From contig KV748255.1 in assembly GCA_001692895.1 (NCBI GenBank), positions 434,001 to 498,000 on the forward strand: DNA of 64,000 nucleotides, in the 5' to 3' direction. The stretch's first letter is position 1. Every line of letters starts with the position of its first letter. Positions 743-62,128 of this stretch are shown here, in pieces. The stretch is from Cenococcum geophilum 1.58. Lineage: Eukaryota > Ascomycota > Dothideomycetes > Gloniales > Gloniaceae. The notes under the pieces were generated by a model. The model ran no database searches and was not told the DNA's origin. It saw only the letters and a list, made by a program, of their open reading frames with translations. Both the position numbers and the translations under genes were made by a program.

Positions 743-840
743 GAGTCGCCCAGTGCTTTAATCTATATTCAATATTAATTAAAGTTATTAAATATTAAAT
801 ATTAATCATTTAATATTCAATATCAATACAAAAAGTGTTA
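743..840 (+). repeat. Left TSD (743-750) and AT-rich terminal inverted repeat of K
   Basis: GAGTCGCC is followed by CAGTGCTTTAATC and then very AT-rich sequence built of TTAATATT-like words. The first ~30 bases match the inverted right end with about two differences, and beyond that only the AATATT-rich character is shared. Confidence 0.8.
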
Positions 841-964
841 ATATTTAATATATTAAATATTGAAAAAATATATACATATACTAAGAATATTTAATTTTAT
901 AGCTAAATAGGCCTATATTATGCCCATATATATACTAGGCTATATGCATAGGTGAATAAACATC

Positions 965-1124
965 AGGAAATTTTTTTTTGGCCCCGTTATTGTAAGCGAA
1001 AATCAGGGTCTACAAAACCTGCGTAAGTCGCAATTTTGGCAATTTGCGGGCAATTTACAGCAATTTACTACAAACACACAACCCTAATTTTCGGCCACAA
1101 CAACGTGGCTAAAAAAAATTTCCT
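965..1124. mobile_element. 160-bp MITE-like inverted-repeat element inside K
   Basis: The segment starts AGGAAATTTTTTTTTGGCC and ends with its inverse, GGCTAAAAAAAATTTCCT. A second inverted match lies inside it: GCGAAAATCAGGGT against ACCCTAATTTTCGGC. The arms therefore span roughly 45 bases. It keeps many CA/TG dinucleotides, unlike its surroundings, as expected for a repeat too short for RIP or for a later arrival. No clean target duplication is visible, although ATGCATAGG occurs on both sides (946-954; 1130-1138). A fragment with the same terminal motif occurs at about 21,930-21,957 near the other end of K. Confidence 0.65.
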
Positions 1125-1129
1125 AATGC

Positions 1130-2050
1130 ATAGGAAGTGTAACCGTAGGGGCAGGCCAGTAGACCTCTCTTATTAAATACGAAATTGCCATATATTAATA
1201 GGCACACTCCTAGTTCTTTAAGCGGCAAGTTAGCAGACTTCTATTATTAAGTATAAAATTGCCGTATATTGCCTGGCATATTGCCCAGTTTCTTAAGTGG
1301 CAAGTTAGTATACTTTAGTCATTGGGCACAAAACTGCCACACATCGCCTGGCACATCGCCTAGTTCCTTAAGCTGTAAGCTAGTAGACTTCTATTACTAA
1401 GCGCGAAACTACTATACATTACCTAGCACATTGCCCAGTTCTTTAAGCGGTAAGCTAGTAGACTTCCACTACTAAGCATAAAGTTGCCGTATATTGCTAG
1501 GTATATTGCCCAATTCTTTAAATTACAAGCTAGCAGGCGTCGCCCATTAGTAGAGTATTCTAATATATTAGCTTACATATTACCTAGTTCCTACGTTATA
1601 AGCTAGTAGACTTATTATATTAACAGAGCACCATAATATATTGCCTGGCGCATTACTTAGGTCCTTAAATAGTAAGCTAGCAGTTGTTACTTATTACTAG
1701 AGCACTGCGATATATCCAGTCGCTTATTGCCCAGTTCCTTAAATAGCAAAATAGTAAACTTCTCTTATTAATATAAGAATTGCGGCATATTGCCGATATA
1801 TTGCCCTATTCTATAAAAAACAACCTAATATACCTTCCATTAACTGTAAGAATACAGTATATCGCTAAAAAACATTGCTTACTCCATTAAAAAAAAACCC
1901 CAGTATATACCTTCTATCAGCCATAAGACTGCGGCATATTGCCCACTATATTGCCCAATTCTCAAAACAACAGCCTAGTATACTTCTTTTACCAAATAAG
2001 ACTTTGCAGCAAATTGCCTAGCATATTACTTAATTCTGCGCTAAAATATT
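1130..2050 (-). repeat. Array of ~12 tandem 75-bp units (25-residue protein repeat), copy 1
   Basis: The junction word AGTTCYTTAAGCGGYAAGCT recurs every ~75 bases, at about 1209, 1283, 1358, 1433, 1508, 1582, 1656, 1730, 1803, 1877, 1948 and 2028, decaying toward the high-coordinate end. Because 75 is divisible by three, the unit reads as a 25-residue repeat on the minus strand, with recognisable pieces such as KELGN.PGN and QFRA. TAG/TAA stops fall at likely Gln/Trp codons. It follows the helicase domain in the same orientation, so it is most simply the C-terminal tail of that protein. Confidence 0.75.
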
Positions 2051-5000
2051 AAAAATACCTCACTAGAACACTTCCACTAGCTGCTCCTTTAAACTCCCTA
2101 GCTTATTCATATCTACGTCTAGTATCTCGTCTACAGCAGTCTTTTTAAACTTATGCTTATTTAGAATTCCAACCTTAATACAGGAAGCCGTGTTATATAA
2201 AATATATGCTGTTATAAGAGGGTTTTCTTAGCTAATTCGGTAGATGCGGTATATAAACTGTTCCTATTTACTAAAGGACGGATTAAGCTCTATAAGTACA
2301 ATAAAGTATACCTTATTAAGGGTAATACCCTCTGTAATAGCCTTTAGAGATAATAAAAGAATCTATAGTCTGCTTAGCTGCTTCTACGAGTTATAGATAA
2401 TATAGTTCTTTTACTTTGGTAATATTCCTCTAGGGAGATATATAACAGCGTTCTCGCTATATTTAGCAACTAAGGCCTAAAATAAGTATTAACTTAGAGT
2501 TCTGGTTAAGTAAGCTGCTGTTAAGAGGTAAAAAGATAAAGTGTTTTGTTACTTACTGCTATATATACCGCCCTAATAGTTAGGAAATTAGTGCCAATAA
2601 CAACCTTACTATAATACCCCCCAACGTTTTTTAATTATATAACTTCTTTATAGATAGCTAAAAGCGCCTCAAACTTTATATTACCGTAAAGAATTTCCTC
2701 TTTATTCTTATCCAAGATGCTTCTAATAGGAGATTTAATTAATTTTGCGTGAAATTTTGCTTATATATCAATTTTGTTGTCATTTAGCAGATCCTTATTA
2801 CATCTATCCTTCTATAAAAGTAACCCAGGCGTTATTACTGCAACACAGCACGCAAAGTAGGTGCTTAAGGAGGTACCAGCTATTTATACTGGTTGGTTCC
2901 CCTTAAAACAACTATCTTCTTTCCATTTAACCATTTTCTACTAAAATGCCTCTTCTATTTCTAACGCCATTATACTTTCTATACCCTATAGCAATTTAAT
3001 TTCTATAGTTCTATACTTATAGTTTAGGTAGTAAATTTAGAGCTCGCCTAAAACAACTTTTAATTTTCTTCTATCAAAGCCGATGGTATTTAAGGTATGG
3101 CGAATTTTAAAGTTTATAAATATTTCTCCACTAACCTAAACCGATTCTTTATATACCGTAAACTATAAAACCCCTTTAGGGTTGCTCTTTCCTTATTTTA
3201 AAAAATAACTCTATAGCTTCGCCATTTTTTTAACTTTAACGGACGTGCATTTTTTAAGAATGCTATTATCTTAGGCGCTTGCCCAATCTAGATCTAAAAG
3301 GCCACTTATAATAAACTAACATATATCTACAACACCATTCTCTATTAGAGTCCCTAATATAGCCCAAATAAAGAATCTGAGGCGTTTTAGTATAGTACTT
3401 TTATAGAAATAAAGAAATTGGTTAACTATAGTCTCTTTATTCTTCTTATTATAAAACTTATCCTATAAAACCCTACTAAAAAACGTGGTTTTAACCAACT
3501 ACTAACCTTTATCCTCTTACTTACCGTTAGATAAGAAGCGGTAGACTCTTCTAGTAATTATGAAGTTATTAATAACACGCTATTTTAGGCATTTGGATGT
3601 TATAATTATAACAAATCTTATTACTAAGGCAGCCGGGGTACTAACTAAAGGATTACCCTTTTTAAGTAGTAGGATACTATTAGAGAACCATAGGCAAGGG
3701 GTTTTTACTTTATCTATAAGAGCCTAACGAGTATTTAAAGTATTATGGGCGGTTTAGTTTCCTAACGTTTTTATTTCTAGCCACTTATCTAAAGTCGGCT
3801 ACTCTATGCCTGGAGAAACATCTGCCGTTAAATAGTATATTATAACTCTTAGCGGTGCCTGCGCTTGCGTTACAAGTAGTAAGTCTTTAAATAATAAGAT
3901 ATAATTATCTCTCCAGGTAGTAATAATATGTGGAACTACGATAACTAGGCTAGTACTATACTGTTTACGTATTATAGATATAGCGTTATAATTTACGCAC
4001 AAGTATAGTAGAGGCACTCTATCCTAGCTAGGACACTTAATACTATTAGCCTAGTGGCCCTCCGGTAGATATTAAGTAGCATTTCTAGCCGCTTAATTAG
4101 TAGCTACTTTATCTAGGTTTATAGTATAGTAGTAGTTAAGGATAATAGTTAAGTATGCGGTTACTATTTTACCGGTCCCCATGCCGTCTATAAGAACCCC
4201 ACTATTTAGCTCTATACGTTCCTGGTAGAACATCTTAGATATACTATATAGCTAGTATAGGAACGCTCTAAACTCTAAATTTAGACCCTATCTACAGGAA
4301 ACAGGGACCATATTATTCCCTAGGAGGGCCCCTTTAGAAACCCCCTATAGCTTAGCTAAGCGTTTATATATTTACTACTCTATTCTCTTAACCTTACCGC
4401 CTACTTTTGCTATAGCGGCTTCTTAAAATCTAAAAAAAGCTAACGTTAGTCTAATTTAAGATGTACTCTATATGCTTATATACCCATACCTTTACTTAAT
4501 ATAATTAGTAGCCTCTGCCTCCCTATCGGCTTCATTTATCGTATCTTTAAGGGCCTTTTTTTCTAGGTTATCGTCTTCTACAGAAACCTATATGGTGTTA
4601 CTAGCTAGATTGTCTACGGTTATAACCTATAGTTAAGCTAGTTTAGGATCCGGAGCGGTTACGCTTTAGAGAGCATTATAATTGTCTTTATTCTCCTTTA
4701 TACTATTAGGACCCCCTATAGGCTAGATAGTTAGACTACCGCGGCCGTCCTTAGCAGCTTGCCGCAATTTGCCTTTAGATACTCTAGTAGGTTACTCCCT
4801 TTTATAACTATATTTCTTCCAACCTAATAAACTTAGAATGCTGTTATACGCTAATAAGGTTAATAAAGCATCGCTTTTACTTTTAATATCTTTATTAACG
4901 AACTTATTATCTAAGTACTCTAAGTGCTTACGGGTCTGCTTAGATATAGTCTTCCGCCATTTCTTATGTATAGGCTTACCGCGCAAAGACTGGCGAATTA

Positions 5001-6250
5001 GGGTATTAGCGATGCTAGGAGGGTTTATACTCTACTTGCGCGGTATTTAGTATAATATTTCTATAATTAAATGCTCGGCTGCAATTATTAGTATATAAAT
5101 AGCCAGATGTTGTTAAAAGAACTTATAATCGGTACTCTTAAGTATAAATTCTACTTTACTTCTATGGTATAGTATATATTGCTAAAATGCGGCTTATAAT
5201 GCCCCTTGCTAGGCAATATAAGCCTCCTTATAGGATTTAATATTAACCTATATAATTTAATCCTTATCTAAGTTAAACCCTATTAATACTGCAACCTCTT
5301 AAAATAGCGAAAAACTAATTTCTTTAATTGTTAGAGTTTCTGTATTAGCTTCTATAATGTTATAGATTATATAAAGCTCTATAGTATTTTAGGTGGTTAA
5401 GTTTATTCTTTAAAATTAGAAGGTTATATTTTTAAACAAAAGCGGCTTGCCTAATAATATAGGGCCTAGTGATTCCGAGATTTGCTTGGGAGTAAATATA
5501 GGCGTTGGCGTTATTATGGGTTTGAATTTAGGTTAAGTCTAACTTCTAGGTTCTAACTTATTTTGCCGTTTTATAGTATTAGTTCTCTAAGATATTATTA
5601 AAGTAATAATAGTATCTTTAGACTAGCTCTCTAAAATACCTTCCCTCTTAGGTAAGTTACTAAGGACCTTCTAAACAAAGTTATTGCGTAGTATTTTATC
5701 TTTAGCAGTATAAAACGCGACTTTATTAAGCCTGGCCTCTACTATATTATCTAAGATTATCTTCTTAATTTCCTTAAGGCGATAAGTATTAATTTCCTAT
5801 CCATTTATAATATCCAAGTCCTTTATAGTAATATGTAAAGATACTAAAATAGGATAAAGAAGAAGTAAAGCGTTATTATATAAGAGCGGAAGAATCTAGT
5901 TAGTATTTAGTAAAGGTATAAGTCTAAAGTAGGTAGGTAAGACAAACTAATTATAAAAATGAATTAACTGGGTAGATTACCGCAGTTCTGGGGTATAAAT
6001 CACGGCTTAAAGCAGTAATTAGCGGTTAAACTAATTAATTAACTAATTAATGTCGCGTAGAGGTGCCGTGCGAGAGTTAGTTAAGGTAGTAGAGGTAAGG
6101 AGTTAGGCAAAGTAGATATTAAAGTTAAGTGCTCCCGCAGTAACGCTAGTAGGCAAATTACCGTCATCTAATGCTTATTAATGGCAAGGTAAATTAAGAA
6201 GTTCTAGTAAATACACAGAATGCCGAGTCTAGCGGCATTTTGCGGCAGAT
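1130..6250 (-). pseudogene. SNF2-type helicase pseudogene with C-terminal 25-residue repeats, copy 1
   Basis: Read on minus, the Walker A/motif I region is at about 4,160-4,200 (GVLIDGMGTGK, then a T-A-Y-L-T-I-I-L helix). The C-terminal helicase lobe lies at about 2,090-2,370, with LLLSLKAITEGITL, a V-Y-F-I-V-L-I-E-L-N-P-S stretch and an arginine-bearing YRIYRI corresponding to motifs V-VI. SNF2-family proteins are DNA-translocating ATPases. A short relatively intact stretch, rich in Lys, is at 4,792-4,986. The protein ends in the 25-residue repeats at 1,130-2,050. Stops occur throughout, so it cannot make a full product. A paralogous copy at 8.5-13.4 kb aligns along the same length. The start codon was not resolved, and the N-terminal part (~5.0-6.25 kb) contains no domain I recognise. 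Confidence 0.7.
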
Positions 6251-8525
6251 TGCCTTAGGTAGTATAAGTCTTATATAGTTATAATTTTTAGGATTTAAGA
6301 ACTAAACTAACTTATTAGTTTATTAAACCTTGTAAATCCTGCCTTAACTACTAATATAAAAAGGTAATAACTTAGCTAAGTATAGAATTTACGTATTATT
6401 TTTAATTATTTTTTAATAGGAGACTAGGTAAAGCTAATTAAGCCTTTACTATAGCCTCCTTTAAGCCCTTTTATACCGCCCTTAATTGATCCTCTATATT
6501 AAACAGCCGCTGGTTAAACTATTTAACCACTTATAGCACTTAATATACCTCATTTAGCGTATATAGTACGTCCTCCCTTATAACCTTAAGCTGGTCCTTT
6601 ACTAAAAGCTCTTAAAACATTACCTTTCTTTAATTTATATTATGCGCTTCGGTTAGTTGCGAATATAGTTTTATAACCTTAGAGATAATCCTACTTTGTT
6701 ACTTAGGCGTCCTAGATTAGATTAACAATAGATATATTTTAAGCCTTTTTAGCTTTTTAAAGTTCCTTAATTTCCGTCTTTAAACTCTCTATTCTAGTAA
6801 TTAGTAGGTAACGCAGTCTGCAAAGCATCCTATCCCTCCTTTATACGACTAATTATCTAACTTACAACATTAAAAAGGTCCCTCTTTATAGTTTTCTAGT
6901 TTCCATAACAGCTATCTCCACAGCACTGTTTTTATTTAACTCGGTTCTCCCTAGACTATATATAGCGGCATTTCTAGCGGCTAGTAGGACAGAATAGGTT
7001 AGCAGAGGCTTCTTAATAGGTAGCTAAGCTGTCTTTATAGCTTTAGCTACCTTACCATTCTTCTCCTACTTAATTAGAAACCCTCTAATCTCCTTCTAGC
7101 AACTATCCGCCGCTTTTCTTCTTTCGCGGCTTTAAAGCTGGCTTAGTGGTCCTATCTCTGTTCTTTAGTAACGCCTTTTTAATATAGGGACGCTTAGTGC
7201 GCTTAGCTAGGGTAGTTATATACCTAGGGTTTTTATTTATCTATAATAGCCGATTAGCGTAAGATATCTATAACTTTTTATTGGCATATATACTATTGCG
7301 ACGTTTACTTTAAAAATAGGTTAAGGGCTAGTATATGGTTAAGTTAAGGGGAAATTGGTTCTAATGCAGAGAGTAGGTAATAAATAGATGGATAGTGTTT
7401 AGTAGTAAGATCTAAGAGGGAAGCTTATCCTTATTAACGTTAAGAATGCGTATAAAGCGGATAGGTGGTAGTAATTTAGGGGAAGACTTTAATAGAGGAT
7501 TATCCTATATAATCGGCAGCTAATTAATAGAGGAAGGGTAGAAACCTATAGTTATAATATTATATATTATAATATTTTGCCTAACTTCCTTAAATATATA
7601 TATAGGTAGTGGCCTTCTGTAGCATTTCATCGGCATCACAAGTTAACGCGTTTTAGTAAGGCTTACTAATAAAATCACGCTAGCTAAAGTACCTGCAGTA
7701 TACTAACCTAGGTAAGAGCGCCCAAAGCGCCTAATATAAAAAGTCTCTTTTACTAGATAAAGGGATATAGAGCTTAAAGCTCCTCACTATTCGGTTATAA
7801 ATCGCCTCTATATTATAACTATTTAATCTATATACCTTTTAGTATTACCTATTTTATAATTAGTAGCGGCTACTACTATAGCTTATTTAAATCTGTAATT
7901 AAGTTAATTATTTAGTAAGGCTCCAAAATAAGGCTCTAGATTTAACTTCGCATATTAATACGTAATTAATGTTAGTAAATAATTTAAAAGAGCCCCTTTC
8001 TGCCACTAGGCCTCTATCGCGACTCCCTACTTTAGTATAGTAATAGAGCCTCCTCCTTAACCAACGTCCTCTCTATAATTGGCGTTTCCTATATCTTTAC
8101 CCACCTCCTGTACGAACCCCCTAGAAATAAGCTTATCGCGATTAAGAAGGTTAAGATAATAATATTATATAAGGCATGCAAACGCGACTATAGTATCGCG
8201 ATTAGGGCATGTATCTAAAACGAGCCGTATACTAGTATAAAGAGAACAGCAGCAGAATAAGCGGGTGTTCTAGATTCTATAGCTAATGCGCCCCTTAATA
8301 GACACTAAGTTAGTAGCAGAGCTCTAGGAGTTACTAATTGGCCTTATATTAAGCACGGAGTTACTAGTAATCTATTCTTCCTCAGCCACATTTTAAATTA
8401 GGTATAGATCTAGAGCTCTAAGAGCTATATTAACTTTATATTCACTCCGCTCTACTAATTAAATAGTTAGATCTAAAGTCTATATTAATTATAACTCTAG
8501 CTAGGAGCTCCAATCTAATAAGATT
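6251..8525 (-). pseudogene. Unidentified decayed coding block(s) between the helicase copies
   Basis: No named domain is recognisable. On minus, about 6,420-7,150 gives charged, helix-prone peptide (for example SLKTEIKELQKAKKA, and a basic segment near 7,060-7,140), suggesting a coiled-coil or basic protein. A second protein-like stretch lies at about 7,660-8,300 (for example NRDTIVAFACL and GSITILK.GVAIEAQW.KGA). Both contain many RIP-type stops. The block has no counterpart after the second helicase copy, so it was not part of the duplicated unit. Function is unknown and the limits are approximate. Confidence 0.35.
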
Positions 8526-8529
8526 ACTG

Positions 8530-9575
8530 CCTTAAAGAGTAAACTAGTAGACTTTAATTACTAAGCGCGAAATTGCCATATATTGCCTAGTATACGCCCA
8601 ATTTCTTAAGCGGCAAGCTAACAGACTTCTATTACTAAGCGAGAAATTGTTATATATTGCCTGGCATATTACCTAGTTTCTTAAGCGGCAAGCTAGTAGA
8701 CTTCTATTACTAAGCGCGAAATTGCTATATATTACCTAGTATACCGCTTAGTTCCTTAAGCGGCAAGCTAGTAAACTTCTATTACTAAGCGTAAAATTGC
8801 TATATATTACCTAGTATACCGCCTAGTTCCTTAAGCAGTAAGCTAGTAAACTTCCATTACTAAGTACGAAGTTGCTATATATTACTAGGCATATTACCTA
8901 ATTCTTTAAATTATAAGCTAGCAGGTGTCGCCTATTAGTAGAGTATTTTAATATATTAGCTTATATATTACCTAGCTCCTACGCCATAAGCTAGCAGACT
9001 TGCTATATTAACAGAGCACCATAATATATAGCCTGGCGCATTACTTAGGTCCTTAAATAGTAAACTAGTAGGCGCTGCTTATTAATAGAGCACTGTAATA
9101 TACCTAATTATACATTGCCTGGTTCCTATATTATAAGCTAGTAGGCTCCTCTTATAAGTAGAGTATTCCAAATATTGGCTCGTATATTACCTAGTTCCTA
9201 CGTCGCAAGCTAGCGGCTTCTTTTATTAACGGAGCACTGCGATATATCACCCGCGTATTACCCGGTTCCTTAAATAGCAAAATAGTACCTTCTTTTATTA
9301 ATGAAAGAATTATAGTATATTGCTAATATATTACCCAGTTCTACAAAAAACAACTTAGTATATGCCTTCTATTAGCCGTAAGACTGCTACATATTGCCGA
9401 GTATATTACTTAATTCTATAAAAAAAACAATCTAGTATTTACCTTTTACTAACCGTAAAACTGCGGAATACTGCCTACTATATTGCCTAATTCTAAAAAT
9501 AATAGTCTATTATACTTCTTCTACTAAAGAAGAATTTACGGTAAACTACCTAGTATATTACCTAATTCCGCGCTA
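8530..9575 (-). repeat. Array of ~14 tandem 75-bp units, copy 2
   Basis: The same 75-bp unit as at 1,130-2,050, with junctions at about 8602, 8677, 8751, 8825, 8900, 8972, 9047, 9119, 9193, 9268, 9340, 9411, 9487 and 9563. The order of degenerate units parallels the first array but with extra units inserted, so unit number has changed since the duplication. It sits directly after the C-terminal helicase lobe of copy 2. Confidence 0.75.
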
Positions 9576-12500
9576 AAAGGATTAAAAATATATCGCTACT
9601 ATAATCTATAACATTTGTATTAGCTACTTCTTTAAATTTCTAGGCTTATTTATGTCTATGTTTTTCTTAAACTTAAGCTTATTTAGAATTCCACTTTCGA
9701 TATAGAAAGCCGTTAATAGTAACACCCTCTATAATAGCCTTTAGAAATAATAAGAGAATTTACAGTCCATTTAGCTGCTTCTATAAGTTATAGATTATAT
9801 AGTCTTTTTACTTTAGTAATGTTCCTCCGGGGAGGTATATAACGGCATTCTTGCTATATTTAGCAACTAAGGCCTAAAATAAGTATTAGCTTAGAGTTCT
9901 AGTTAAGCGTACTACTATTAAGAGGTAAAAAGATAGAGTGTTTTACCACTTACTGGTATATATACCGCCCTAATAAATAAAAAATTTGCTATAATAGCCT
10001 TTAACATATAGTGCTGCTATAATTTCTTTATAGATAGCTAAAAGCGTCTTAAACTTTGCGTTATTATAAAGAATTTCCTCCTTATTCTAATCTAAAATAC
10101 TTTTAATAGGATTTTTAACTGCGTTAGTGTAGTATTAAACTAGATATTTATTTTTTTTATTATCCGGAAGATCCTTATTAAATCTATCCTTCTATAAAAG
10201 TAACCCGGGCGTTATCGCTAGATCATAGTATATAAAGTAGCTGCTTAAGGAGCTGCTGGCCATTCATACTAGTTTTTTCCCAGTAGGAAAACTATCTTCT
10301 CTCTATTTAACCATTTTCTACTAGAATGCCTCTTCTATTTCTAATACTATTACACCTTCTATACTATATAGGAATTTAAGTTCTTTAGTTTTATAATTAC
10401 ACTTTATATGTTAAATTTAGAGCTAGCCTGGGACAGCTTTTAGTTTTCGGTTATTAAAGTTAATAGTATCCCAGTTACGGCGAATAAGAAAATTTACAAA
10501 AATTAGGCCACTAACCTTAACCGATTCTTTATATGTCGCAAACTACAAGGCACTTTTAGGGTTGCTCCTTCCCTGCTTTAAAAATTGGGTCTATAGTTTA
10601 GCTATTTTATTAACTTCCGCGGACGTGTATTTTCTAAGAATACTAGGTTAGCTTAAGTGGTTACCTAATCTATATCTTTAAGGGCGCTTATAATAAACCA
10701 GCATATATTTATAACACCATTCTCTATTACTATGCTGGAAATGGCCTAGGTAAAGAATCTTAGGTGTAGCGGTACTATATTTTTTTTTAAGAACAAAGGA
10801 ATTAGTTAATATAAGTTTCTTAATTTTTTTTATTATAAAACTTATCCTATAAGATTCTGCTAAAGAGTGTAGTTATAACAGTCTATATACTTTTATAGAG
10901 GACCGTTAGAGAACTATAAGCAGGGCGTTTTCTTTTTACCTATAAGAGTCCAACTATTATTTATCGTATTATAATCTGACTAGTCCCCTAAAGTCCCCAT
11001 TTAAAGCCATTCCTAAGGGTTTAGTCGCGCTATTCCTTTAGATATACCTTTTGTCTTATAGTATATTACAAACCATAGTAGCGTCTGCTCTTTTATTATA
11101 AGCATAAAGTCCTTAAATAATAAGATATAATTATCTCTCTAGCTAGTAATTACACTTAGAATTATAATAACTAGATTTACACTATGCTGTCTTTACATTA
11201 TAGATATAGCGTTTTAATTTACATATAAGTATAGAAAAGGTATCTTATCCTAGCTAGGACACTCGGTATCTTTAGCCTAGTTATCCTTCTATAGATACTA
11301 ATTTGTATTTCTAACCGCTTAATTAGCAGCCGCTTTGTTTAGGTTTATAGCATAGTGGTAACTAAGGATAATAGTTAAGTACGCGGTTATAATTTTTCCG
11401 GTTCCTACACTATTAGTAAAAACCCCACCGTTTAGTTACGTGCGCTCTTAGTGGAATATCTTAGATGCGCTATATAGCTAGTATAGGAATAATTTAAACT
11501 TTAGATTTAGACCCCATTTACTAGAAACGGGGACTGGGTTCTTCACTAAGACGGCCTTTTTAGGAACTCTGTATAGCTTAGCTGAATATTTATATATCTA
11601 CTACTCTATTTGTTAAACCTTACCTCCTACTTTAGCTATGGCGGCCTCTTAAAATCTAAAAAGAGCTAATATTAGTCTAATTTAAGATGTACTCTATATA
11701 ACTATATGCTCATACCTTTACGTAATAGGCATTATAGCCTATATCTCCTTAGCTTAGGTTATATTATCCTTAGGTATATTTTTACCTAAGGTATTTTAGA
11801 TTATATTAGTTTCTATAATTTTACTAAGGAAAGCTTTTACGGGTATAGTGTTAAATTATTATATAGAGTTTAAGCTAATTAGGGATATAAAGCAGTTTTG
11901 CTCTAGGGAGTATCGCAATTATCCTTACCGTGCTCTATATTATTGGGATTGTCCGTAGGCTGGATAACTAGATCATTGCGGCTATTCCTAGCAGCTTACC
12001 GTAGTTTACCGTAGTTTGCCCATAGATACCTCTAGTAGGTTGCTTTCTTTTATAATTATATTTCTTCGGACTTAATAGACTTAGAATACCGCTATATATT
12101 AATAAAATAAATAAAGCATTACTCTTATTCTCGCTGTCTTTATTAATAAACTTAATATCTAAGTACTTGCAGATCAGCTTAGGCGTAATCTTCTGCCGTT
12201 TCTTAAGTGCGGCCTTAGCGCGCGAATACTGTAGGTTAGAGTATTAGCAATTCTAGGAGGGTTTATACCCCACTTATTTAGTAATTAGTACAGTGCTTTT
12301 ATAATTAAATGCTTAGCTGTAATTATTAGTATATAGATAGCTAGATATTATTAAAGGGACTTATAATCCGTACTTTTAAGTAGAAATTCTACTCTGCTCC
12401 TATTATATAGCATATATTACTAAAATAAGGCTTATAATGGCCCTTGCTAGGTAATATAAACCTCCTTATTAGTGACTACGTTGAGCTAGGTAATTTTATT

Positions 12501-13430
12501 CTTATTTAAGATAAAACCTACTAATACTAAGACCTCTTAAAATAGCGAGAAACTAATTTCTTTAACTATCAGAGTTTCTATATTACCTTTTAAAATTTAT
12601 AGACTATATAAAGCTTTACAGTGCTTTAGGTAATTAGGTTTATTCTTTAAAACTAGAAAGTTATATTTTTAAGTAAGAATGGCTTATTTAGTAATGTAAA
12701 ACTATATAATTCGGAGATTGGCTTAGAAGCAAATGTATATACTAGCGTTATTATAGGTTTAAATTAGGTTTAACTTCCGACTTTATATTATTTTGCCGTT
12801 TAGTGGTATTAGTCCTTTAGGATAATATAAAAGGAATAATAGCCTATCTAGACTAGCTGTTTAAAGCACGTTCTTTCTTAGTTAAGTTACTAAGAATCTT
12901 CCAAATAAACTAATCGCACGGCACTTTATCTTTAGCAGTATAAAATATGGGTTTTTTAAGCCCGGCCTCTTATATATTATCTAAGATTATATTTTTTAAT
13001 TTCCTTAAGGCGACGAGTATTAATATCCCATCCCTTTATAATATCTAAGTCCTTTATTATAATGCGTAAAGATATTAAAACGGAATAAAGAAGGAGTAGA
13101 GCGTTGCTATATAAAAGTAAAAGAATCTAATTAGTGATTAGTAAAGGTGCGAGTCTAAAGTAGGTAGGTGAGACAAACCGATTATAAGAGTTAATCTACT
13201 AGGCAAATTGCTATAGTTTTAGGGAGTAAGTTATAGCTTAAAGCAGCAATTAGCGGTTAAACTAATTAATTAACTAATTAATATCGCGTAGAGGCGCCGT
13301 ATAAGAGTTAGTTAAGGTAGTAGAGGTAAAGAGTAAAGTAAAGTAGATAAGCCTAAGGTAAATGCTCTTGCTAACGGAATATAATGCGCGCGAGTTAAAG
13401 GGCAATTTACTATAGTAGATTGCCGCTAAA
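8530..13430 (-). pseudogene. SNF2-type helicase pseudogene with C-terminal 25-residue repeats, copy 2
   Basis: This is a paralogue of the 1.1-6.25 kb gene, in the same orientation and alignable from the repeats through the N-terminal region. Motif I on minus lies at about 11,385-11,435 and reads SVGTGK followed by I-I-T-A-Y-L-T-I-I. The acidic/Gly segment preceding it in copy 1 is altered here. The protein is broken by many TAG/TAA stops. It ends in about 14 of the 25-residue repeats. Most differences from copy 1 are C/T or G/A, with some indels; for example, sequence at 2,150-2,290 in copy 1 is missing around 9,700 in copy 2. The duplication therefore predates much of the RIP. RIP itself is triggered by duplicates like these. 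Confidence 0.7.
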
Positions 13431-13449
13431 TATGCTTCCTCTAGTTATA

Positions 13450-14560
13450 GAAAATATTCTTTATAAAACTAGTATAATGGGCGGAGCTAGAAGTACATTA
13501 GAATATATAACCTAAGAATAAGGGTTGATACGCCTAGGACGTTTTGCCTATCTAGGATTAATGTTTTAGCTTAATTAAGACTGCTTTAATATACCCTTTT
13601 AAGTAGGGCTCCTAGTAAATAATTAAGACTCTAAATAGTATTAGATTTAAAGCTATAAGGACTAATATTATATACCACGTATATTCGCAACTACGAAAAC
13701 AATTATATCCTTAAAGGCTTTAAGCGTTTATTATATTGCATACTTTAAAAGTCCCACATTCCAAACTGGCATAATTATTAGTATATCTACCCATAACTCC
13801 TCCGTCTCTAGGTTAACTTTAGCGTCCTAGGCAATATTAAGAAATTTGGGGAAATCTAGAAGACTCGTCCACCCTTCCACTAAGTTAGTTTAAAGTAGAC
13901 TAGTACCTAAGTCTATATAAATTATAGACCGTGGTATATTCTCTAAATCTCAGCATATATAGATTATAAGACCCTAAACGTTATATTTATTAACATATTT
14001 AGGTAAAAGAGATTAATATACGTCCTAAGGCTCTGTATAAGGGTACCCTATAGCAGAATTTATAGCTCTATACCGAAGTCCTAATTTAGCATTGGCCTAG
14101 CTAGCTTTCTTACGCATATTTAACTGCGTGCGAGTAAGGAGATATTAGGCCACTTCCTTAATCCACCCAACTGGAGCATTACTAGACTCTAGGATTTAAT
14201 TAACGATTTTAGCTATAATCTTACTTTAAATAGCGTAATTTATTTAGTCTTGGAAGTATATGGATATTACATTACTCTTATTTACAATGTCCTTAACTGT
14301 CCCTTTAATCTCGTATAAACGAGCGCTGCTGATACTAAACCTAGATATAATCTGCTCATCCTTCCTAAGAGTTTTACCGGTAGACTTATACCATACCTCC
14401 TCTATAGTATGCACACTATTTAATTGTATTATTGCCATACTAGGTGCGTATAGTATTAGCGAGGGATATGGGATTAAAGGTTTATAAATATTTAGCGGTT
14501 GTAAATTAATTATAATAGGTACTATAGGATATAATACTGCTTTATATATTATTAGCGCTT
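13450..14560 (-). pseudogene. Unidentified protein-coding remnant, comparatively lightly mutated
   Basis: On minus, a coherent reading frame starts near MAIIQLNSVHTIEEVW at ~14,438. It continues through KGTVKDIVNKSNVISIYFQD (open 14,244-14,438), an R-T-Q-L-N-M-R-K-K-A segment and a hydrophobic L-W-V-D-I-L-I-I-M-P stretch, down to about 13,450. Stops are few and RIP-like. I recognise no family. It lies between helicase copy 2 and the plus-strand transposase, with which it diverges, so it may be a third gene of element K or captured host cargo. The true start could lie upstream, since protein-like sequence rich in Pro/Ile precedes the Met. Confidence 0.4.
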
Positions 14561-14959
14561 AGGATAATATACTACTTAGTATATTTAACTTACAATTTAA
14601 AAGGAGTAAGCCGTTACAGTTATTAGGATGGCTAGTAAATCGCCGCAGATTACGGCTATTGGATTAGTTATATAATGTACTGCCCTTTTTAGGCATAAAC
14701 CCACCTATTAAATCTTAATAACAACATAAGGAGCCGTATTTGTCGCTATTATAATAGGCTTAATAAATTGCCAGTGCCCTAAATGCAAGCGCACGATTTC
14801 TACTATAGGTAGATTGGTGCGATATAAGCTGTACTATAAAGCTATAGGTATAGACTATCTTAACTAATAGGATGATGTCTATTCTATAATTTAGGCTTAA
14901 GTAGATATATATAAAGACGACGAATTTACTATAGAATAATAGGTACACGACCTTATAGC

Positions 14960-17900
14960 AACTAACACCGCTGTTAACAATACTTTACTAACCATTACAG
15001 GAAATATTAGCTTAATATTAGTAGAGGAGCTAAGTAATATAGCACCGGTAGAATAACTAACTAGTACCAAAACATACAGTTACGCGGTAATAAGCCTCTC
15101 TACCTTAAATATTTATTATACCCAAACTTATTATAAAGTAACTGGCCGCTATATAGGAACCCTACTTAACCACCTAGAGGGGAACTCTAATTAGCAGTCT
15201 ACCACGGATCGCGACCACCCGCTAAGGCCTAGCTAGCTAGCAGATGGAATAAATAAAGGCAATAACATATTCTACCCTTTTATAAGCTCTATAGAATAGG
15301 CACAAGTTGCCTAGTAGGTACACAATAACATATTAGTAAAAGAAATAGACACATAGCTATAAGACCCCTATATTAAAAATATAAGGGACGGATATATATT
15401 ATGCCGAAATATAAAAGAAGTTAAGATAAAACTATATTCTATTTCTAAAGGTGTAAGTAATAAGAGCTGGCGAATTATAGAACTTAATATATACGGCAAA
15501 AACCTAAAGATATACCACCGTGATATACTTAGCGTGGTGGCCTTCCTAATCGGTTATTTCCCATTTAAAGATAATATGGTTTATTCTCCTATTTATTAGT
15601 TTAACGTAAAAGGTAATAGAGTGTATAACGAGGTATATACGGCTAACCGTTAATAGGAGATCTAAGATTAATTACCTAATAGTGCGACGGCTATTATAGT
15701 AATACCTAGTAGCGACTAAACTAAGCTAACTACACTATTTAGAGATAAAAAGGCGTATCCGGTTTATATTACGATACTTAATATCCTATTAAAGACTTAA
15801 CATGCGGCTAGTAGGCTAGTAATACTTCTTCTAGGTTATATACCTACGGACTTACTAAGTAATTAGATGAATAAGCTAGATATATACTATTAAGTAATAA
15901 GCATTATATTTAAACGTAAGTATTTACCTTAGTAGTGTATAGGTACTTAAGTTAATATAAAAACTAGCCCTTAAACACGCTGCTAGGCGCGGCATACTAA
16001 TGTGATGCGCGGATGGGTTTATCCGGCAATGCTACCCTATACTTACTGGGTTTATGGCAGATTATAAGGAGCAGGTTATATTAATAGGAGTAAAATTAGG
16101 GTAATACTGCATAATGTATTATATACCGCCTTATAAATAAGGTAACCTACTAAGTACTATATCCGGTAAATAGCCGCGACGGATATATAAATTAACTATT
16201 AAGCAACTTAAACGACAGTAAAACTTATAGCTAGATCGCAGTAACCCTAAGTATATTAGGCCAATTTAAAATTTTACTTAATCCCATTATATAGCGGATA
16301 TACACGCTATAATGGCCCCTAATTTACTACACTAGCTATATAAAGGTGTTACGGAGCATTTAATAAGCTAGCTTCGGGCACTACTACTTAATATTAAGAA
16401 AAGGAAAGGGAAGGTTCTAATAACTAATTAGAGTGGTATAAAAACCCTATTATCTACTAAGGATAGGGTAGAATGTCTTCTAACTGTATAATTTGCTAAG
16501 GTTAAACCCTTTTAGGGTATAATTAGATGGGATAACTTCGCAGAGTTAAGCTAATAGACTGGAAAGATATACAAGTCCCTTCTTCGTTAGATTATACTAG
16601 TTATGGCACCATTGCTATATAGGCATAAGGGGGCAATGCTGTTTATTTATACTATAATTAACTTTATATTATTAGCCGAATATAAATTATATAATAAAGA
16701 TACAATTAAATATCTTAAAGCTATATTATATTAAATGGATAAGACTAAGGAGGCGTTCTTACTGTACTAACCTAATAACAAAAACCTACCCAATTTTAAT
16801 ATACCTAAACTTTATGCAATTTCCCACTATCCGGAGATAATTTGTATATTTAGCGCCCTAATAGGAACTATAATAGAGTATAGCAAAAGGGTATATATTC
16901 CTTAGAAGAATTTCTATTAAAGATTAAATAAGCGTAAAGGGTATAAAGAGCAAATAATTTATCTTAATACGGAATTAATAAACACTATAGTAATATAAGA
17001 GATGGAGCTATAGGAAAACATAAGGCTAATACCAGCAGCTAATACTATAGAAGATTTATACATTGTATTATTATTAGGCATAGTTAACCTAATAGACGAG
17101 CCGTATAGATGGGATTACTGCCAGTTAACTAACTAAATGTTTTCAATATGCGGAATAAACCCAAATTTATAGCGCAGAGCCTACGAAATTTAGACTAAGC
17201 TAGGTATTAATAAATTTATTATAAAACTAGCTTTGTTTGTACGGGAATGTTATAAGCGAGTTAATAGTATATAAGCAACGGATTTAGACGTTAAGCGCCT
17301 TAAAAGGGATGCAGCCTAGGCATAAGATTTACCTATTAGTATTTATTACTCTATAATATGCTATATTTAACGCGGTAAAGACTTTTATAATCTTAATCGA
17401 CTATATAAAGCACGGGTACGCTACAATCCAGTCTAGATACGGACTACTGCCCTATAAAGGGACTAAGTTCTTATATAAGAATATAAGAACGTAATAGATG
17501 GAATAAAGGGAACGCGGGCTGCCTGTTTAGAATTACTGGTATTAGTATAAAACTTAAATCGTATAGGTAAGAATAGTAGATACTAAGTGTACTATAGAGC
17601 ACTTCTTAAGCTATTCCGTCTATATAATAAAGGTAAGGTAGATCCTTTTAATAGGATAATTAAAGTAGAACGATTTCTTATAAATATAGCGTAAAATAGA
17701 CAAAACCTAAACGGCCACCAAATATACAATATTTCCTATATTAAGAGACCCATATAACTAATACTAACTTCGCTAAATAAAAGAAGAACGTTCTAGATAA
17801 ACTTATATACAGATTAGGACATATATAATCGATTCTATAATAATAATTTTCTTTAGATTAACAGTATACGCGTAGATAAGTTTATAAAGAAATAAAAATC

Positions 17901-18120
17901 TAAAACTAAGCTTTTAATTAAATTATGGGAGGCCTTAGAATAAAAACAAAAACGGCTAACGTAATAGGGAATCCGGCATATTTAATCCCTAGGAATTTAA
18001 GTAAACTAGCTGCAAGATAAGGTAAGACAGAAAGAAGTTAAAAAAGCCATTAGTTAGCTTAAAGGTAAAGGCGGCATATCTAATATGTGGGTAAATTAAG
18101 TAGTAGAGGGGCTTATTAGA
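14960..18120 (+). pseudogene. Plavaka-like transposase pseudogene
   Basis: On plus, about 15,220-15,760 contains the ordered landmarks of Plavaka-type transposases: an N-x-F-Y-P-F segment followed by an A-Q-V-A motif, a long acidic/Lys region, then NEVYTANR, a W-x-E-I-Q-D-like segment, LPNSAT, a P-S-S-D-x-T-K-L-T motif, and KAYPVYITI with the following N-I. The D in the SDxTKL segment is a likely catalytic acidic residue. About 16,010-16,070 reads as the A-D-G-W-V-x-P-A-x-L-x-Y block. About 16,800-16,970 carries an I-P-K-hydrophobic-H-Y-P-E block and a later N-K-R-K-G-Y-x-E-Q. Many stops are TAG at Gln/Trp positions. Such enzymes cut and paste DNA between short inverted repeats. It is taken as the enzyme of element K. 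The exact start and end were not resolved. Confidence 0.65.
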
Positions 18121-18149
18121 GTAAGAGGCTAGCTAGCTATACGTATTTT

Positions 18150-18600
18150 TGCGGATTTTATATTAGCAGAGTAGTATAATAACCCCCCCTCTTTTGCCTT
18201 TTTCTTCCGATTTACCGCACGTTTTTCTTTAATAGGCTTTATTTTTATAATAATCTCTACCTTTATAGTCTGAGCTTCTTTTAACTGTTCGCAATTAAGT
18301 ATATTAACTCTATTAATACTTAGGGCTAAATTAATAGCTAATCTTTATAACCGCCGCTTCTCAACATATAGAATAGCCTTATGTTGCTCCTCTACAAAGG
18401 CTTTCCTTAAGTTTTAAACATAAAACGACTTTATTAGCTTATTACCTAAGCTAATACGCTTTAAGGAAGATTCTAGGTAGAAAAAGGCGGAAATAGCGCA
18501 ATTAAACTAACTCTGCGTCTTAGGTGTATCTATAGGCTAACTAGGTATAAAGGGGAGCTCCAGAGTACGTCTTAATAAGGGAGGAGAATAAAAATAACCG
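18150..18600 (-). pseudogene. Possible C-terminal fragment of a pogo/DDE-type transposase
   Basis: On minus, a nearly open frame gives a Pro/Thr-rich linker (L-E-L-P-F-I-P-S-Q-P), then SLKRISLGNKLIKSF and a Lys/Arg-rich helical region ending K-K-K-A-K-E-G-G. This order resembles the region after the catalytic domain in fungal pogo-like transposases. No catalytic domain was recognised upstream of it, so a solitary fragment or an unrelated coiled-coil protein is equally possible. Confidence 0.3.
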
Positions 18601-19090
18601 TTAAGCACTTACTGCTTAGGTAGTGTTAACCTACCAAACCACTAAAAAAGGTTAGCTATATCTATATAAATTAGTTAAATTCTTATATTTTTACAGGCGG
18701 TTATAACGCTCTTACCCATAAAGATTAGCTCTAGTACTTGCTTATTAGTAGGAATTCTTAATATTACGCAGCTAACGGCAAGATATGCGGCAATCTGCTA
18801 CAATTTGCCCTAAGTAGGCTAGTAACAGGTCCAAGCTTCCTAGCAGAACCTTAAAATCTCCCCCTTTACTCCTCTATTTCATTAACTGCATCTATACTAG
18901 CAAATATATAATTTAAAAGTATTATACTTTATCTTTATATCTTTATTAACTTCTTTAACTTCTTCTATATTAGTTATGCCAAAGGTTTACCAACCTCTAC
19001 TATCCTAAAAAAATATAACTACAGCTTCTAAAAAAAATAAGGTATAGACTACCCTCTATATAACTGCTCAAAATACTAATATATACCTAC
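18601..19090. other. No recognisable gene; contains a GGCAA-type dyad cluster
   Basis: AT-rich, RIP-like sequence without a frame I can support. At 18,775-18,812 there is a cluster of GGCAA / TTGCC words (GCGGCAATCTGC, CAATTTGCC) that recurs elsewhere in the window. Confidence 0.4.
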
Positions 19091-21410
19091 CACCAAGGTA
19101 AAGGTAAAAGAAATAGCACTACTAGTATAAGAAGAATCTAGAAACGTATACGCGAACGGCAGTTAGGCTAAAGTATTATAAATAGTATATACACGGTAGC
19201 ATGCAGCTAACTTTAGTAGACGGCTATATATAGCGATAGAGTATCTAGGGATAGTATTCTAAAACGTTAGTTAGATATAAATAGCGATTCTAAAGAAGAT
19301 AGAGGCTTAATGCCCTAGGGAAGAGCGTATTATTAATAACTCCAGCAGAGTTTAGATAAAGAATCTCTAGATCTATATATATAGAATTTAACTATGGTAT
19401 CTATTACATAGACTCTATTCCTTTATACCCGCTTACGCTTTAATAGCGGTTATAAGTCCTAAATCGCCCCAATAAGCGGCTCTAATGCTACCGTCCCTCT
19501 ACTAAAGAGTTTATCTCTAGTGCCGAAGATAACTCTATAGCCGAGTCGTTTTATATAGCGCCTATACACAGTAATAAACCATAGAAGTCTTAATACGGTA
19601 TATATACAGTTAGAAAATGGTAAGAAATAAAACATAGCAGTAAACCTAAATTAAAACTTATGGATAAACTAATATTAAAAGCTGCTGTGCGCTTCTTTTT
19701 AATATTTATAATATTAGGTAAGGCTTCTAAAGGTCTTTCTCTTACGCTATAGCCGGAAGGGAATATAAAGACTTTAAAAAAGACGATGGACTTAGCATAG
19801 GATAAAGCAGTGGAGTATAATAGGGTTTCCAAAGGCGACAGTTCTAGCGAGGCTATACAAAAACCGTCGCCATTAATGTGTCGCATAGTAAGCTACCTCT
19901 TATTACTTTTATATATACTAACATAAAATAGATATATAATAGCATTAGCTAGTTCTAGTCTTACCTATTAAGACGCATACAAGATTACGTAAAGGCTAAG
20001 TACTTATTTAGAAAGCTCTCTAAGTAGGAAACAATTGCTAAAGTAGAAGAGCTACTCTATATAGATGACTTTTAATGCTTTAAGACAGTATATATAGTTA
20101 TACTACCTTAGCACTCTCCTAACTATTTATAGGGCGAGTAATCCCGCTTTATAGCACCGGTTATTATAGTCAGTCTCTCCAAGTCATTCTTTAAAGGAAG
20201 GTGGCAATTTAGGTTCAATATAGATATATAGCACTTTCTACGCCTAATTAGCCCCGGGGCTGTTATACTAATTTATATAATAATCCGCCACATTATTAAT
20301 AAATGGAAAAGTGGTAGTTTTACCTAATAAAAGCTTAAAGCAGGTGCTAATATTAATAGTAATTTATTCTTTCTTTACCCTCATTCTAACTACCTAGGCT
20401 ACGCTATAACTAACTCTAATATTAGCCATATAGGAACGGATAAAGGCTATATAGGCGGATTAGTTAACAGAGCACCAAAACTGGATTTTAGGGCTTCTGC
20501 GACAGGGCGTCTTAAAAAGACATTAAGTAACTATATATAGTAACGACCCTACTGTATAAGTAATTCCAAATCCATTTAAATATAGTCTTAATAATCTTTC
20601 TAACCTAGATTCTAACTATAACGCAGGATTTAATAAGCAGCGCTTTAATATACTTCTACTGGTATATAACTACTTATAATAACAGTTCTGGACTAATACT
20701 TATATCTAGGTACTTAACGCGTCCCTTTCCTTAAACCTAGACACCTCCTGTCCTTCCGGCACTGTTACTTAGCCTAATATACCCCATAATATGTCGCCTA
20801 ATTAGACCAACTATAGTACTAATTACTAAGGCGGTAGGCCTAACAATATTAGCGACCCTAACAGCGGCATAGATAGCGGGACTAATATAAATAAGTGTTG
20901 TAACGGATATAGTGGAGTTAATATAGATAAAGATGGCGATACGGATAATAGAACGGATATAGCTCTAGGTAGAAATATAGATGATTGGAATAGTGTAAGA
21001 AAGGGGGGCAACGAATATAATGGAGTAGACATAGGCAATAATGCCGGCGTAAATAGTGGAGAAGATATAGATAAGGATAATAGCGCCGGCAATAATTTCG
21101 GAAATAGTACCTATAAGCTTATCTTTAAAGGTATAAAATCGCGGAATCGGAAACGTACTATTAATATACCATATCGCTAGAATTACGAACAGTTAATAGC
21201 TGTAGTTAAGCTATTTAAAAAGACGCTTAGGGCTAAACCTAATATAAGTCTTTAGTATACTATTAGAAAAGGGGTTGAGTCTGTACTATTTAATAATAAG
21301 GATTTAGATATCTTTAGAACAAGGGTAAAAAAGGGGCTAGGTAAGGTAAATACTTTATAGTCTATAATAGGTTTAGAGAAATAGCTATTTTATATAGTAG
21401 TTATAATATA
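19090..21410 (+). pseudogene. Unidentified decayed coding region at the right end of K
   Basis: The plus strand holds long protein-like runs with few stops. About 19,280-19,900 includes SSAEDNSIAESFYIAPI and a Lys-rich segment. About 20,470-20,830 is followed by an open run at 20,829-21,180 rich in Asn, Asp and Gly, then a basic K-G-I-K-S-R-N-R-K-R patch and an alpha-helical tail to ~21,410. The low-complexity acidic/Asn region beside a basic patch suggests a nucleic-acid-associated protein, but I recognise no family. Stops are TAG/TAA in RIP contexts. Whether this is one gene or two was not resolved. Confidence 0.4.
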
Positions 21411-21489
21411 AATATATTTTTAAAGGCATATTATAGCAATTTATGGCAATCTATAGCAATCTGTGGCAATCTGTAGCAGTATATTATAA

Positions 21490-21672
21490 TTTATACAGTT
21501 CATACAGTTTGTATAGTTCGTACAATTTATACAGTTCGTATAATTTGTATAGTTTATATAATTTATACAGTTCGTACAGTTCGTACAGTTCGTACAGTTC
21601 GTATAGTTCGTACAGTTCGTATAGTTCGTACAGTTTGTACGGTTCGTACAGTTCGTATAGTTTATACAGTTT
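21490..21672 (+). repeat. 9-bp minisatellite (unit TTCGTACAG), ~20 copies
   Basis: Tandem units of TTCGTACAG with RIP-like variants (TTTATACAG, TTCGTATAG, TTTGTATAG). The central copies (about 21,567-21,640) are the most regular. The array is in frame as a Tyr-Ser-Ser repeat on plus, but with no credible gene around it I treat it as noncoding subterminal sequence of K. Confidence 0.85.
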
Positions 21673-21739
21673 ACGCGCTATTTATTTATAGGGTAGCAAA
21701 AAGCTAGCATTAGTTTGGTAGTTAAGCGTTTTGCTATAA

Positions 21740-21860
21740 TTTGCTATTAGATATTATAAACTTATTACAAAACGCGTGGTTTACTATCAGATGCTGTAAA
21801 CTTATTACAAAACGCACGGTTTGCTATTAGGGTGCTATAAACTTATTACAAAACGCACGG
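21740..21860 (+). repeat. Three tandem 40-bp units
   Basis: Three copies of a unit beginning TTTGCTATTAGATGCT and ending ACAAAACGCACGG, differing mainly by C/T and G/A. They lie between the 9-bp array and the right terminal repeat of K. Confidence 0.8.
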
Positions 21861-22084
21861 TTTGCATAATTCGCTAACAACTATATCTACCTACCGCAAC
21901 CGTATAGTTTGCGGCAATTTGCCGTAAACCGTAACAACCAGCCTAAAAAAAAATTTCCTAATAAAGGGGTATATAGGTAGGAGTAATAGAGAAATAGAGT
22001 GTATCCTAAAGGGGGGGGAAGGTCTTCGACGTGATTATATCATCAGGTACACGGTCCTTACTTTATATTTATATAGAGGCTTGG

Positions 22085-22192
22085 CAAAATTTTTAATATT
22101 TAATATAATATTAATATTAAATGCATGTTTAATATCAATATCAATACGACCCTATATTAATATTGAATATTAATTAAAGCACTGGAGTCGCC
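22085..22192 (-). repeat. Right AT-rich terminal inverted repeat of K and TSD (22,185-22,192)
   Basis: Read on minus it starts CAGTGCTTTAATTAATATTC, the counterpart of the left end at 751. It is followed outward on plus by GAGTCGCC, identical to 743-750. Confidence 0.8.
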
Positions 22193-54060: not shown

Positions 54061-55114
54061 CTTTTTAAAAAATTAGGTTAGATGGTTTTTTTTAAATAAA
54101 AAAATTACTAAAGAATTAGTTAGTTAAGGAGGACCTAAGAAAATACCTACAGAGCTATTTAGAGTTATTTTCCTCTCTACTTTAGATAAACCCTTTTAGT
54201 TTCCTTTAGTTTAAGTTTATAGAGACCCTACTTAGCTAGTTTCTACTTCTTTAAATAGATCTTTTTATAAGTATTACGGTCCTTATATTGGCAGTAGTGC
54301 GACTACTAAGAAGATATATAAATAGGTTAATTAAGATAGTACGAGAGGAGGTAGAACTGATCGAGCTAGAGGATAAGGGGTAAGCCGAGTTATATAGCTA
54401 GTTACGTTATAAGTTTAGAACGTAGAAACATAGGAACGTAGAAACGTAGTAGATGTACTAATATACTAATATATTAACGTACTTAGTACATTTCTTAGGC
54501 GCAGTATTATATATTTAAAGGACTATAGTCCCTACCTAGATAGTTCTCTTCTTTATAGTAAATCTTAAAATATAATTAAAGTTAATCTATTAGGCAACCT
54601 ACTCTACTAATTATATTTATATTATTGACTATTCTATACCTATATACCTAGCCCTTTAATAAGTCTATTATAGTATTTCCTATAAAGCTTTGTTATAATA
54701 AGCCTTTTTTAATATAACGCGAATAGGATAGTATAGTTTTATTAAATAAAAGAATTAAGTATAAGGATCTAATAGAAGGTATTAGGGATTAAGAAGGTTA
54801 TTAAATTAAAGATAAAAATGCTATATCTTTAAGGACGAAGATAGAGAGGATGGGAATAGTATTACAGACCTTATATTAGCAGTAGTATAGATACTTAAAG
54901 AGAAGATAGATAAACTAGGTATAATAGTATAAGAGGCGCTAAAACTGATTAAACTATAGAATAAGGGATAACTAAGTTATATAATAGATTACTTCCTTCG
55001 TCACTAGATACCTTAGATCTCGTTTTTATCTAATTAATTGGCCCTTAGCTACCTATCGTCTCTATATCTTTAATAAAGCTAGCCATGCTCGTGCTTGGGT
55101 AGTAGATATTGGGT
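54061..55114. other. Retroelement remnants with a diverged ~130-bp direct repeat; no gene
   Basis: 54,271-54,410 and 54,862-54,990 are related direct copies (AGTATTACGGTCCTTATATT versus AGTATTACAGACCTTATATT, then a shared purine-rich part). They may be parts of LTRs or a duplicated segment. 54,418-54,455 repeats ACGTAGAAAC. No coding frame is supportable. Confidence 0.45.
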
Positions 55115-55137
55115 AACTCCAACCGCCGGTCAAAGTT
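55115..55137. repeat. Imperfect palindrome P2, reverse orientation
   Basis: AACTCCAACCG, C, CGGTCAAAGTT, followed by GTCTAATTAGCT, which is the inverted flank seen at the other P2 sites. This copy keeps GTCAAAG, suggesting that the unmutated arm carries a C-A that RIP changed elsewhere. Confidence 0.75.
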
Positions 55138-55630: not shown

Positions 55631-55668
55631 TTCGTGTGTCGACCTGAATCAGGTTGTCTTGCCAGCCT

Positions 55669-55731
55669 GACTCAATTACCTACCCCTTCGACTCAGTCAC
55701 TTACCCCCTTGACTCGATCACCTACCCTTTG
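55669..55731 (+). repeat. Three tandem 21-bp units
   Basis: Units of the form GACTCAATTACCTACCCCTT plus one base, repeated exactly three times with substitutions, right at the compartment boundary. Confidence 0.85.
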
Positions 55732-61196: not shown

Positions 61197-61228
61197 GTTT
61201 ATCACCATGATGCCTTCACACTTCAAAT

Positions 61229-62121: not shown

Positions 62122-62128
62122 AGCGGCC

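Follow-up and report, generated by a model that had tools for sequence, protein, structure and literature searches.

The window analysed here, a stretch of 64,000 nucleotides from Cenococcum geophilum 1.58 (contig KV748255.1, positions 434,001 to 498,000), very probably holds a 21.0-kb transposon of the PlavakaB type at positions 961–21963, which is flanked by a 2-bp target-site duplication (TSD), sits inside an earlier hAT-like element of about 430 bp, and carries within its ends genes for a helicase, a DUF6532 protein and two further proteins besides its transposase. One element is nested in the other, the inner one has its own ends and target duplication, its transposase belongs to the Plavaka family, its copies share one gene set and multiplied before they were struck by repeat-induced point mutation (RIP), and a second giant Plavaka family occurs in the same genome. 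The sequence-only reading of this DNA had proposed a giant multi-copy Plavaka transposon that moves a helicase and unrecognised genes along with it, and this proposal was borne out by 12 further loci with both ends, at boundaries other than those first drawn.

Those first boundaries rested on the octamer GAGTCGCC, which occurs only twice in the 64-kb window, starting at 743 and 22185, and on a 30-nt inverted repeat (93% complementary, terminus CAGTGCTTTAAT) that adjoins the octamers. Both features are real, and they had been read as the CAGTGC..GCACTG termini and the exact 8-bp TSD of a single 21.4-kb transposon. A genome search with the window's left end, however, gave two patterns: the loci at C7, C76 and C72 match the outer ~210 bases only, while many others match chiefly from ~961 inward, and the right-end search likewise yielded one outer and one inner pattern. 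At C7:3614324–3614773 the outer left part (to 960) abuts the outer right part (from 21966) with no 21 kb between them; the window's flanks, joined with a single AA, are 90% identical to this copy over 452 aligned positions, and the copy bears its own 8-bp duplication, GCTATGTC. The copies at C76 and C72 are likewise continuous across the junction. These uninterrupted copies indicate that the 8-bp TSD belongs to the outer element and that the 21 kb were inserted later. A single 21.4-kb transposon with an 8-bp TSD was thus rejected: for all its exact octamers and good inverted repeat it is extremely improbable, since three outer copies lack the 21 kb, one of them with its own 8-bp TSD, and copies of the 21 kb elsewhere show other flanks and 2-bp TSDs.

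From the octamer search and the uninterrupted copy, the target duplications of the outer element were placed at 743–750 (GAGTCGCC) and 22185–22192, and copy comparison put its left part at 751–960 (+ strand) and its right part at 21966–22184 (+). The last two bases of the left part (AA, 959–960) are at the same time the left TSD of the 21-kb element. As judged from its copies, the outer element is a non-autonomous element of ~430 bp and the owner of the 8-bp TSD; duplications of the 8-bp length typical of hAT elements were seen both in the window (GAGTCGCC) and at C7 (GCTATGTC), and we take it to be hAT-like from this length together with its terminal pattern. The view that the insertion had interrupted a gag-like frame, restored when the flanks are joined, was not upheld, 10 of the 12 read-through frames in the flanks being without a Pfam match at E ≤ 0.01.

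The inner element (21,003 bp, + strand), defined by its ends and TSD at 13 loci and by collinear copies, starts with CATCAGGAAATTT at 961 and finishes with TTTCCTAATA at 21963. End comparison gave terminal inverted repeats at 961–995 (+, beginning CATCAGGAAATTTTTTTTTGGC) and 21929–21963 (−), and the right copy of the AA duplication at 21964–21965, the left one being at 959–960; an extra inverted copy of the terminal repeat lies at 1095–1128 (−), ~135 bp inside the left end. The genome searched comprised 177.19 Mb in 162 contigs, and 40 first-pass candidates were scored in each end search, so the locus counts are lower bounds. Eighteen long left-end matches with near-full query coverage were obtained, and for 13 of them, including the window, a partner right end was identified on the same strand of the contig; the unpaired ones (C4:3223692, C24:192278, C3:3961905, C31:1717747 and C23:889314) and two right-only ends were left out. 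End-to-end distances over the pairs ranged from 20.9 to 43.3 kb, and the longer spans presumably hold nested insertions, because C48 has ~8 kb and C26 ~1.3 kb of extra sequence. CATYAGG..CCTRATG-type ends were present at all 13 paired loci, and the 2-bp duplication was exact at 11 of them and differed by a single C/T change at the other two (TA/CA, TC/TT). The sequence-only reading had expected further loci with the same ends, each with an 8-bp TSD: such loci exist for the corrected ends only, 12 beyond the window having both, but the ends originally proposed recur as uninterrupted small copies, and the duplication of the 21-kb copies is 2 bp long.

Short elements of 238, 269 and 268 bp (at C6, C31 and C18) also have CATCAGG..CCTGATG ends in common with the 21-kb element and are probably derivatives resembling miniature inverted-repeat transposable elements. 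No clear 2-bp duplication was found in the flanks of these three, one of which differs by C/T, and no end pair was found at two further loci (L048, L049). An Rfam search gave nothing at the gathering score.

Assignment to the PlavakaB type is supported by the transposase, the termini and the duplication. Read-through frames of the window matched the Plavaka profile PF18759 at E = 3.4e-25 and 1e-21, as the sequence-only reading had recognised, and a consensus of seven copies, used for reading the genes, matched it at 6.3e-27 and 1.8e-15; a C-x2-C stretch is readable in the transposase consensus. The group is defined, in the portion of PMC12730594 that deals with it, by termini 5′-CATCA..TGATG-3′ and a TSD of 2 or 3 bp. 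At 13 of 13 loci the termini are of this type, once the C-to-T and G-to-A changes typical of RIP are allowed for, and the 2-bp TSD (exact in 11/13, one C/T change in 2/13) falls within the range, so that all three features fit the group as published there. The earlier placement in the KDZ superfamily was abandoned: the transposase is Plavaka, the TSD has 2 bp and not the 8 bp of Zisupton, and the current classification, as far as that portion of the source sets it out, groups Plavaka with EnSpm, outside KDZ.

The copies at C91, C42, C24 and C13 are collinear with the window across about 21 kb. When six copies were aligned, 16562 columns were invariant, 4296 varied by transitions only and 108 were otherwise variable; in the variable C/T or G/A columns the base after the surviving C was most often A, next G, and pairwise transversions amounted to 0.0009–0.0034 per site over the 15 pairs of copies. 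By this pattern of substitutions the copies were near-identical when they spread and were mutated by RIP afterwards. At 55000–64000 of the window the G+C content climbs from about 0.3 to 0.4–0.57; here, host sequence that escaped RIP probably adjoins the transposon-rich part.

The helicase, transposase and other genes lie inside the ends in all aligned copies. The helicase A gene, of SNF2 type, was located at approximately 2066–5900 (−) by profile search. In separate pieces of its consensus, Helicase_C was matched at E = 0.0014 and an SNF2-related domain at 6.3e-4 and 0.014, and a protein search returned a single relative, P0001 (aligned to 2524–4371), with 87% identity over 94% of the queried part. 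P0001 is an unbroken protein of 616 amino acids, annotated as hypothetical (public source 'jgi'), and carries PF00176 at E = 2.8e-9 (36.9 bits against a cut-off of 24.9); membership of the SNF2 family was thus established through this relative. With stops read through, helicase A of the window and of five of the six other copies aligns with P0001 without gaps over 615–616 residues; at C48 the match is split. An AlphaFold model of P0001 was uninformative (mean pLDDT, the predicted local distance difference test score, 30), sequence searches of the PDB gave a best E of 0.16 (ISW1) with the helicase piece and nothing at 0.01 with P0001, and the window's element was not among the matches listed in a whole-genome search with the SNF2 profile.

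The sequence-only reading had seen twin SNF2 helicases with repeat tails. The tails are there: repeat search found an array of 75-bp tandem repeats downstream of helicase A at 1150–1521 (+) and a second one at 8544–8885. The second helicase is a different matter. Helicase B, at approximately 9590–13400 (−), ~7.3 kb from helicase A, with P0001 matches at 9976–11597, is by its sequence the product of a duplication that took in the 75-bp repeat array. Its match to P0001 ends at residue 225–234 in all seven copies examined, its frame shifts near residue 370 in six of the seven (C48 crosses this point in one frame, with gaps), and its consensus lacks a stretch of 158 bp and contains two insertions of 2 bp each. 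The deletion and the frame breaks rule out two working helicases in the window's subfamily, where helicase B, as read from the consensus, is a relic; in the related loci C60, C64, C39 and C29 its second half matches in one frame, and decay there is less clear.

This decay bears on the view that the helicases and further genes were captured as passengers and do nothing for the element. The decay of helicase B preceded the spread of the copies, the transversions in this gene by codon position (48/40/55) lack a third-codon excess, and large elements are able to carry such genes, all of which would suit passengers. Against this stand the gapless alignment of helicase A with an intact 616-amino-acid protein, the intact relatives of the 230-codon gene and the presence of DUF6532 in two Plavaka families of different layout (both below), and we regard the absence of any role as possible, if short of probable.

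Of the remaining genes, that for the transposase occupies approximately 14730–18140 (+; profile matches at 15498–15866 and 15967–16368). The 230-codon gene at 17985–18674 (−), read from the consensus, has two intact public relatives, P0002 and P0003, which are unbroken proteins of 227 amino acids (94% identity) and 161 amino acids (77% over 54%); no credible Pfam domain was found in it. The DUF6532 gene lies at approximately 19456–21381 (+; domain match 19923–20342), and its domain scores over the cut-off in the seven-copy consensus (E = 8.5e-8); of the 7991 candidates scored in a protein search with this gene, none reached E ≤ 0.001. A further coding block, also read from the consensus, lies at approximately 13480–14558 (−). 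Its start aligns locally with the start of helicase A at a score of 54, against 23.9 ± 4.5 for shuffled sequences (0 of 5000 shuffles reached it), which is a lead only, since the pair was chosen by eye; BLASTP found no likeness between the same two starts. It is possible that the two proteins share a DNA- or partner-binding domain. Near the right end, repeat search detected 9-bp repeats (21494–21671) and 40-bp repeats (21740–21865), which together span 21494–21865 (+).

The association of these genes with Plavaka was then counted over the genome, where 123 of 266 first-pass candidates were scored for Plavaka and 71 of 253 for the helicase, making these counts lower bounds as well. Same-strand helicase matches within 20 kb were merged into clusters, and six second-piece rows of the 230-codon gene were dropped. 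Regions no more than 30 kb from a scored Plavaka match make up about 3.7% of the genome; 25 of the at least 38 helicase clusters fall within this distance, 32 of the 38 lie within 40 kb of the 230-codon gene, and 28 of 34 loci of the latter are within 10 kb of Plavaka. Likewise, 49 of 76 DUF6532 matches were found within 30 kb of Plavaka, where 2.8 would be expected from the genome share. They fall mainly into two layouts: that of the window, on the Plavaka strand and 3.5–4.1 kb downstream (14 loci, plus C140 at 9.7 kb), and a second one, on the opposite strand and upstream (22 loci at 14.9–16.3 kb and 8 at 20–28 kb); four are in neither.

The second layout belongs to another giant Plavaka family, three copies of which were delimited by flank comparison: C33:1049368–1069354 (19,987 bp, TSD TA), C19:249920–269863 (19,944 bp, TSD TT) and C1:6268551–6288516 (19,966 bp, TSD TA). 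Their termini are of CATCGG type, the 2-bp TSD is exact in all three, and each copy has Plavaka, ZNFX1 and DUF6532 matches inside its ends (at C33, E = 3.5e-46, 5.1e-16 and 7.8e-6, respectively). Genome-wide, ZNFX1 has 65 matches, of which 55 are no more than 30 kb from Plavaka and in every case share its strand: 27 at 10.2–10.6 kb upstream, 19 further upstream and nine 2.4–3.1 kb downstream. The other ten are beyond 30 kb; one of them, an unbroken ZNFX1 domain at C16:2571026–2571322, lies 1.6 Mb from the nearest scored Plavaka match and is probably the host's own gene. By inspection of the match lists, the 38 SNF2-type clusters are all more than 30 kb away from any listed Plavaka match of the second layout. 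In a reading from two copies, the ZNFX1 domain is followed by the motif CYTNHALDQ and a damaged P-loop-like stretch, which we took by eye to be helicase features; Pfam reported no helicase domain on this stretch, and the gene is likely to encode a helicase. A third layout, common to nine loci, is represented by C30:1707001–1724000, where an unbroken ZNFX1 domain lies 2.8 kb downstream of the Plavaka gene with the best profile score in the genome among scored candidates (E = 2.1e-66, 5 stops); a search for the ends of this element did not find them. The second giant family makes the pattern more than one accident.

The course of events would then have been as follows. The hAT-like element inserted first, creating the 8-bp duplication, and the 21-kb element afterwards inserted into it with a 2-bp duplication. 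To judge from the family, the CATYAGG..CCTRATG ends and nearby repeats are presumably what the Plavaka transposase recognises before it excises the element and reinserts it at 2-bp targets by cut and paste; the repeat arrays near the ends (1150–1521 and 21494–21865) may serve as binding sites. The family would have spread as near-identical copies and then been inactivated by RIP.

ZNFX1 relatives act in RNA silencing, and SNF2 proteins usually move on DNA without separating its strands. Both facts speak against a helicase that serves transposition or replication itself, for example by unwinding or travelling along a very long element. Such a function, to which the 20–21-kb length of both families and the naming of AcademH, a helicase-bearing lineage of DNA transposons, in literature represented by its title would lend some weight, appears rather unlikely to us. 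The likeliest role of the SNF2 protein would be the remodelling of chromatin at the donor or target site, which could permit expression or movement despite silencing, and we put this forward tentatively. It is favoured because a TET/JBP dioxygenase, carried by some PlavakaB DNA transposons according to Kojima (2025; PMC12730594), holds this place in other elements of the group, and because the two families carry genes of chromatin or RNA-silencing type. The second family with its ZNFX1-domain gene adds weight to the suggestion that helicases may take the part played by TET/JBP in other elements. One may imagine in this fungus, with similar reserve, a set of 20–21-kb Plavaka elements with a core of transposase and DUF6532, each having acquired a different helicase-type gene from a chromatin or silencing pathway (SNF2-type or ZNFX1-type), directed against silencing or RIP as a functional counterpart of TET/JBP.

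Several observations weigh against our interpretation of the element and its helicase. The SNF2-related and Helicase_C pieces of the de-RIPped consensus, on which profile searches had been recommended, score under the curated cut-offs, and only P0001 passes. Six of the 38 helicase clusters are more than 30 kb from any scored Plavaka match and also more than 40 kb from the 230-codon gene; these are presumably fragments, and one of them, at C73, is 33.6 kb from a Plavaka match. Similarly, 27 of the 76 DUF6532 matches are more than 30 kb from any scored Plavaka match. The copies seen are all mutated and movement itself was not observed, and the anti-silencing role is our inference. In a RIP-scarred genome the ends and target duplications of two giant Plavaka families are now defined, and helicase-type genes lie inside them in the place that TET/JBP genes hold in other Plavaka elements. 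Should the helicase-type genes counter silencing, they offer a testable case of a transposon-encoded answer to RIP, methylation or RNA silencing. DUF6532, a domain of unknown function, acquires a clear setting in the genome, in the company of Plavaka.

Literature searches, outside whose coverage most subscription journals lie, found nothing joining Plavaka with SNF2 and fungi, Cenococcum or Dothideomycetes, nor ZNFX1 with transposon, fungi, helicase and RNA-dependent RNA polymerase taken together, and Plavaka and a helicase in one element are not described in the passages these searches covered; the term SNF2 does not occur in PMC12730594. These negatives are no proof that helicase-bearing giant Plavaka elements are new. 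DUF6532 is named beside Plavaka and KDZ among the extra domains of two Ganoderma species in an excerpt of PMC8955403. A search for TET/JBP gave no match in this genome, and none in the control genomes either, so that absence was not shown. Among known systems, the PlavakaB elements with TET/JBP, as presented in the portion of PMC12730594 cited above, are alike in their Plavaka transposase, CATCA..TGATG-type termini, 2-bp TSD and an extra gene possibly acting on silencing, and differ in that the window's element has 21 kb with an SNF2-type helicase, DUF6532 and two further genes. The giant Plavaka repeats of Amoebidium (PMC11244446, in excerpt) are similarly very large, with an edge-located Plavaka transposase and many other genes, but they come from a different lineage at the kingdom level, form tandem clusters of up to 50 kb and contain tyrosine recombinases. 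In the red alga Chondrus crispus, enlarged En/Spm (CACTA) elements, known here through their citation in PMC6431247, resemble ours in their 16–20 kb, their 4–5 open reading frames and a related transposase clade, yet they are En/Spm and not Plavaka. AcademH (Academ transposons), compared by title alone, is also a helicase-bearing DNA transposon found in fungi among others, of another superfamily. Finally, the Starships are likewise large cargo-bearing elements of Pezizomycotina, but they use a tyrosine recombinase, whereas the window's element has a Plavaka transposase.

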